Source of the DNA: Antennarius striatus
Lineage: Eukaryota > Chordata > Actinopteri > Lophiiformes > Antennariidae
NCBI RefSeq assembly: GCF_040054535.1
Contig: NC_090781.1
Span: forward strand, 19,997,579 to 20,061,578
Length of the DNA: 64,000 nt
Direction of reading: 5' to 3'
Part shown: positions 40,641 to 44,480 of the stretch, in pieces
How positions within the stretch are numbered: position 1 is the first letter of the stretch
Layout: each line of letters starts with the position of its first letter
The notes under the pieces: generated by a model
Told to the model about the DNA's origin: nothing
Databases searched by the model: none
Seen by the model: the letters and a program-made list of their open reading frames with translations, nothing else
Translations under genes and position numbers: made by a program

Positions 40641-44480
<3,840 letters not shown>

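Follow-up and report, generated by a model that had tools for sequence, protein, structure and literature searches.

The locus described here raises the question of whether a trypsin-like gene with an altered catalytic serine motif is an error of the assembly, a gene in decay, an unusual enzyme or a protein retained for something other than cutting. It lies in the genome assembly (548 Mb) of the frogfish Antennarius striatus (order Lophiiformes), within a 64-kb stretch (contig C6, 19997579-20061578) that was analyzed as a whole and is called the window below.

Gene structure and catalytic site of the frogfish protein

The gene and the modules of its product are placed as follows (positions in the window).

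40641..44995 (+): TMPRSS2-like gene, putative pseudoprotease, 13 coding exons; translation identical to NCBI protein P0001; 12 of 12 introns GT-AG
40641-40655, 40760-40886, 41437-41529, 41622-41735, 41866-41989, 42075-42185, 42275-42318 (+): exons 1-7
42634-42796, 42871-43046, 43610-43705, 43812-43948, 44313-44465, 44981-44995 (+): exons 8-13
44981..44995 (+): exon 13, 15 bases encoding KHQD and the stop, taken from P0001
41439..41529, last residues in the next exon (+): predicted transmembrane helix, residues 49-80, type II anchor (model helix and hydrophobic run)
41622..41735 (+): LDL-receptor class A (LDLa) module, residues 82-116 (Pfam PF00057, E 1.2e-4)
41866..42318 (+): SRCR module in three exons, residues 122-214 (Pfam SRCR_2, E 1.4e-19)

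All 455 residues of the 13-exon translation match P0001, which is named 'transmembrane protease serine 2-like [Antennarius striatus]'. An earlier note on this DNA had given 455 codons in 12 exons. The length stood, but the exon count did not: exon 12 ends at 44465, from where the NCBI protein splices to the 15-base exon 13 that had been overlooked. The alternative 12-exon reading, which runs past the exon 12 donor to a stop at 44480, likewise has 455 codons; the C-terminal ends of relatives read NHQDD (P0002) and KHQDD (P0003). As judged by Pfam and by the structural model, the protein has type II topology and the order LDLa, SRCR, S1, as in the TMPRSS2 family. The PF00057 match scored 22.7 bits against a cut-off of 24.1, 1.4 bits short, and the six LDLa cysteines are present.

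The functional sites of the S1 domain read as follows, with standard S1 numbering in parentheses.

42660..42674 (+): zymogen-activation site, R219-A-S-R-S against R-I-V-G-G, in a gapless alignment to Polymixia GRIVGGQQA
42783..42785 (+): His260 (His57), retained
43001..43003 (+): Asp308 (Asp102), retained
43937..43939 (+): Lys397 where trypsin-like enzymes have Asp189 in the S1 pocket
44313..44330 (+): SDGGSP against GDSGGP; Gly193 to Ser401, Asp194 kept (Asp402), Ser195 to Gly403, Gly197 to Ser405; also in handfish P0002
44376..44378 (+): Ile422 in place of Ser214

The codons AGT GAT GGG GGG AGT CCT open the last long exon, directly 3' of an acceptor (...tttttcag) and in a frame continuous with ...KACP of the previous exon, so that the SDGGSP originally reported at this place is read correctly. 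The residue numbers given for Cys399, which precedes the motif, and for Asp402, Gly403, His260 and Asp308 also agreed with the 455-residue translation. Asp402 had been described as the oxyanion residue; it is present, but it is the activation Asp194, the partner of the new N-terminus, and the oxyanion hole is formed by Gly193 (here Ser401) and Ser195. A three-residue deletion at the activation site, suggested by alignment to human TMPRSS2, was dropped in favor of the gapless Polymixia alignment.

In S1 proteases, cleavage at Arg15 makes Ile16 the new N-terminus, and pairing of its amino group with Asp194 orders the oxyanion hole and the S1 pocket; Asp189 binds Arg or Lys of the substrate, and Ser195 is the nucleophile. 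Since all of these sites except Asp194 are altered in the frogfish protein, its inactivity would rest on more than one residue. The RIVGG site, the full triad with GDSGGP and the Asp189 pocket, all hallmarks of the TMPRSS2 family, are absent, and Gly at position 195 would leave no nucleophile. We infer that the protein is catalytically dead.

An intact last exon hidden elsewhere in the window was considered and rejected. A six-frame motif scan of the 64 kb found neither a RIVGG-like site nor GDSGGP; of its six matches, two (TAAHC and SDGGSP) belong to this gene, and the other four (DSGG three times, GDAGGS once) lie in surroundings that did not look protease-like by eye.

The motif contains a run of six Gs and the window represents a single genome, which might suggest an artefact of assembly, sequencing or splicing. 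However, the six residues are identical in P0002 of the spotted handfish, Brachionichthys hirsutus, which belongs to the same suborder and provides the closest other protein among the matches listed (80% identical to the frogfish protein); all introns are GT-AG, the window holds no alternative last exon, and no second copy was seen among the genome matches listed. The earlier argument that replacement of Ser by Gly through GGG takes at least two base changes, and hence more than one error, is true for any Ser codon. Stronger evidence comes from the handfish, where the recurrence of the motif makes a sequencing or assembly error very unlikely, and we give an artefact of any kind next to no credence. 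The recurrence also provides the non-serine motif in another fish that had been proposed as a check on a retained pseudoprotease.

The reading frame is open in both frogfish and handfish. When the frogfish coding sequence was evolved neutrally, by substitutions only, to 20% amino-acid change (500 runs), a mean of 4.6 stops arose, and 495 of the runs contained stops while 5 were stop-free. The reading frame has been maintained.

Paralogy and spread of the lesions

The same genome has a canonical TMPRSS2 gene on contig C13 (exons at about 4808918-4812934, minus strand), whose product, P0295, has RIVGG, AAHC and GDSGGP all intact. This gene was examined as a possible second copy of the window gene and proved to be the canonical paralogue; no second copy occurs among the 87 genome matches listed (best 93 of 191 candidates scored). 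A search with the canonical protein listed 79 further proteins, one of them a TMPRSS11A, and 76 of the 79 have all three motifs. Two Centropristis striata proteins (P0255, P0266) and one from Anabas testudineus (P0312) in this search have GDGGGP or GDNGGP, suggesting that the canonical gene may also have given rise to pseudoprotease copies.

Tail to tail with the window gene is a BACE-type beta-secretase gene (about 46362-54456, minus strand). Its exon at 50448-50810 matches BACE1 (E 2e-24) and BACE2 (E 1e-23), and its C-terminal exon at 46362-46691 matches both weakly, BACE2 (E 0.24) better than BACE1 (E 0.49). Human TMPRSS2 and BACE2 are near neighbors on chromosome 21, and the pair may be an old neighborhood. 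The two BACE pieces had no match in about 39 kb around the canonical copy on C13, and synteny was accordingly dropped as proof of the age of the duplication. Upstream lies a gene (about 29000-39893, plus strand) whose C-terminus (...LFPGWQAWV) is of the PI3K-like kinase type; by eye it was taken for ATM, and a single piece that was tested gave no Pfam match. Within the region of about 14000-17600, an open stretch (14039-15505, minus strand) weakly resembles NPAT_C over its first 130 residues (E 0.004, under the cut-off).

To place the protein, a tree was built from 134 of 234 proteins, mostly database gene predictions. Of the homologue searches, the first listed 120 of 540 matches and two later ones 120 each of capped candidate sets; the rows of the tree were hand-picked as named and mostly full-length. 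Records that were incomplete or duplicated were left out, as were the unnamed 'lgn' rows, additional rows from tetrapods and of canonical TMPRSS2, and P0076. The last, labelled Lampetra planeri, is 62% identical to the frogfish protein and closest to acanthomorphs, and probably reflects contamination of a lamprey record by fish DNA. TMPRSS4, TMPRSS13 and hepsin were set apart by PDB ranking and by the search lists rather than on the tree. The frogfish protein was nested among vertebrate TMPRSS2 copies, and its best PDB sequence match was TMPRSS2 (E 9.7e-94). The TMPRSS2-like copies of teleosts formed one clade, separate from canonical teleost TMPRSS2, with a support of 98 when Alosa was included and of 100 when both Alosa and the trait columns were removed. 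We are unsure of the age of the duplication because Alosa is on a long branch. That shad protein (Alosa sapidissima P0117) branches near the base of the like clade. Its RVVGG is intact, but His57 is replaced by Gln and Ser195 by Glu, which, judged from these residues, is a separate route to inactivity. It was excluded from the trait counts below other than that of the activation motif; its inclusion gives 12 changes at Ser195 and 6 at His57.

The activation motif [IV][IV]GG was found in only 1 of the 79 acanthomorph rows of the like clade, that of Polymixia lowei, versus 55 of the 55 other rows of the tree. Among the 78 rows without it, Gly193 is replaced in 73, and position 214 is Ile, Val, Leu or Asn in 74; the other four (Diretmus, Centroberyx gerrardi, Myripristis and Boreogadus) retain Ser214, although the switch is gone. 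Ser195 is absent from 12 of the 79 rows, with Gly as the replacement in 9 of the 12, and on the tree built without the trait columns these amount to about 11 events: in frogfish plus handfish, Cottoperca, Oreochromis, Amphiprion, Centroberyx gerrardi, Leuresthes, Scophthalmus, Gouania, Poecilia, Vanacampus and Boreogadus. On the same tree His57 was lost five times and Asp102 twice. Of the 114 like rows among the matches listed by the first search, partials and duplicates included, 91 have Ser at position 195 and 21 a different letter, in some cases because the row is truncated or misaligned; the remaining 2 have a gap. The loss is peculiar neither to this fish nor to this motif, and the earlier reading was too narrow. 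Long retention of a lesion is seen both in the SDGGSP shared by two species and in the switch loss of 78 of the 79 acanthomorph rows. We considered and rejected a single fixed sequence of losses, because Centroberyx gerrardi and Boreogadus lack Ser195 yet keep Gly193 and Ser214; the switch would have gone first, and the later order is variable. Gouania willdenowi P0071, on another branch of the tree, has the same five residues as the frogfish, DGGSP, a likely case of convergence.

It could be argued from the 78 switch-less rows, in which Ser195 persists in 66, His57 in 73, Asp102 in 76 and Asp194 in 75, that most acanthomorph like copies remain enzymes that are activated by an unusual route and have a new specificity, and that activity was lost only in scattered lineages such as the frogfish. 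However, the near-complete absence of RIVGG and the replacement of Gly193 and Ser214 in most rows speak against this reading, as do the rates of change. With 11 changes, Ser195 is at the median for columns of the protease domain (the number of changes is equal or lower in 113 of 223 columns), so that in the like clade it is no better protected than a typical position there; canonical acanthomorph TMPRSS2 shows no change at Ser195 in 25 copies. Asp189 changed 37 times, a number exceeded by no column of the domain. His57 (5 changes) and Asp102 (2) lie below the median, which may reflect packing or leftover constraint, and some constraint on the triad may exist outside the frogfish. In the frogfish itself, the Gly at 195 speaks against activity. 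We regard continued enzymatic function across most of the clade as unlikely.

Conserved scaffold and evolutionary rates

The body of the protein has been kept. Eighteen of 19 ectodomain cysteine positions (gar reference) are retained in at least 75 of the 75-78 like rows that have a letter there, and the six LDLa cysteines in 77 or 78 of 78; at the exceptional nineteenth position, Cys occurs in 11 of 75 rows of the like clade and likewise in only 20 of 54 canonical ones. Like and canonical distances were then compared in 22 matched pairs of species (Polymixia included; three pairs, Centroberyx, Lates and Hippoglossus, are congeners of different species). The ratio of like to canonical distance was 0.88 for LDLa plus SRCR and 1.24 for the protease domain. 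In a comparison by stretches (21 pairs), the activation site, the 136-142 region and the 189-195 and 215-220 stretches were among those evolving faster than in canonical TMPRSS2, and these line the catalytic face. Pieces of the LDLa and SRCR modules were slower than in the canonical protein. The most slowed stretch consists of 11 residues covering part of the 70-80 loop and the strand that follows; the loop stretch is placed as follows.

42899..42946 (+): 70-80 loop stretch of 16 residues, candidate binding surface, more conserved in the like clade than in canonical TMPRSS2

In a post hoc test of the 14-column loop, 7 of 216 overlapping windows were as extreme, which makes the signal modest. 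The 70-80 loop of thrombin is its exosite I.

The faster protease domain is also what relaxed selection on a gene turning into a pseudogene would produce, and two of the best 120 matches (P0076 and P0078) have the NCBI LOW QUALITY flag. However, such decay is hard to reconcile with LDLa and SRCR modules that diverge less than their canonical counterparts, with the retained disulphides, with a clade that spans many orders, and with frames open in frogfish and handfish in spite of the stops expected from the neutral runs. We consider it quite improbable.

An AlphaFold2 model (62 sequences, mean pLDDT 74.7) had a membrane helix, an SRCR module and a trypsin fold. Its best Foldseek match in the PDB was the TMPRSS2 zymogen 8s0l, and its matches to catalytic domains of TMPRSS2 alone had a TMt of up to 0.88 and an rmsd of about 2.7. 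Weak confidence at the 189 and 215 loops was considered as a sign of a disordered activation domain and dropped; it is uninformative on activity because the canonical control P0295 is equally weak.

Taken together, the handfish motif, the open frames, the conserved disulphides and LDLa and SRCR modules, and the predicted TMPRSS2 fold suggest that the gene is probably a retained pseudoprotease paralogue of TMPRSS2, in agreement with the earlier proposal of a pseudoprotease on a type II membrane scaffold.

Possible role and comparison with known systems

What such a protein would do is a more tentative matter. We think it possible, at a little under even chances, that it functions as a membrane-anchored binding protein, a cofactor or a decoy. 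A fuller scheme, which we put forward with similar reserve, is that of an old non-enzymatic TMPRSS2 clade in spiny-rayed fishes. A duplicate of TMPRSS2 would have arisen in teleosts. The Ile16-Val17 activation switch would have been lost first, in all acanthomorph rows except Polymixia, and Gly193, Ser214 and the S1 pocket in most later branches; Ser195 would have drifted and disappeared from about 11 lineages, one of them the common ancestor of frogfish and handfish, the order of these later losses being variable. The product would combine a type II membrane anchor, LDLa and SRCR modules and a non-cutting, trypsin-fold head locked in a zymogen-like state. It might offer a protease-shaped face, perhaps around the exosite-like 70-80 loop, to a partner in pericellular proteolysis, in the role of a cofactor without enzymatic activity or of a decoy for a protease, an inhibitor or a ligand, while its canonical sibling would keep the enzymatic job.

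To our knowledge, S1-family pseudoproteases are usually described one protein at a time. The like clade provides a graded series, in which the Polymixia copy looks active, others lack the switch and others again the nucleophile, and the frogfish genome also contains a sibling gene that looks active, so that the order in which an enzyme is converted into a binding protein can be tested. Genes of this clade carry the database name 'transmembrane protease serine 2(-like)', and their use as proxies for TMPRSS2 activity in fish would be misleading.

The closest known system is TMPRSS2 itself, which has the same order of cytosolic tail, single membrane helix, LDLa, SRCR and S1 and the same cysteines; the frogfish protein differs in the absence of RIVGG, Asp189, Gly193, Ser195 and Ser214 and belongs to a separate paralogue clade. 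More distant systems differ in architecture: arthropod clip-domain serine protease homologues (SPHs) are invertebrate proteins with clip domains and without a membrane anchor, LDLa or SRCR, and HGF and MSP are secreted kringle growth factors. The SPHs share with the frogfish protein a replacement of the catalytic Ser by Gly on an S1-like domain, and those with this replacement are described as cofactors in prophenoloxidase activation (PMC4372372). HGF and MSP are S1-fold pseudoproteases that work by receptor binding, and non-enzymatic S1 proteins in general are reported to serve as ligands of receptors, to assist other proteases as cofactors or to provide scaffolds (PMC13194640). The mammalian S1 pseudoprotease PRSS23 has a dismantled zymogen switch, the lesion that appears first in the like clade, and a retained triad (PMC13194640). 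It differs in being secreted and in keeping the triad, whereas the frogfish protein is membrane-anchored and has lost Ser195; the state of PRSS23 would be close to that inferred for most percomorph like copies.

Prostasin and matriptase are likewise membrane-anchored S1 proteases, of which zymogen-locked and inactive mutants have been studied (PMC5452369), but both are enzymes; prostasin is also described as a scaffold for other proteases (PMC9117342). In mice, an inactive matriptase transgene did not give the skin phenotype that zymogen-locked matriptase gives (PMC5452369), so a dead protease need not have a function. Human TMPRSS2 S441A is cleaved and yet inactive, and its catalytic domain retains binding to a viral spike domain (PMC12854727), so the TMPRSS2 fold is able to bind without cutting. 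The zebrafish gene tmprss2 has been treated as the orthologue of the human gene (PMC8015242). Among the titles and opening parts of abstracts of the open-licence PMC literature, we found neither a fish TMPRSS2 pseudoprotease nor a clade of type II transmembrane pseudoproteases. The S1 pseudoprotease is a known kind of protein; what appears to be new is a transmembrane variant that extends through a whole clade, has lost the nucleophile repeatedly and has a sibling that is intact.
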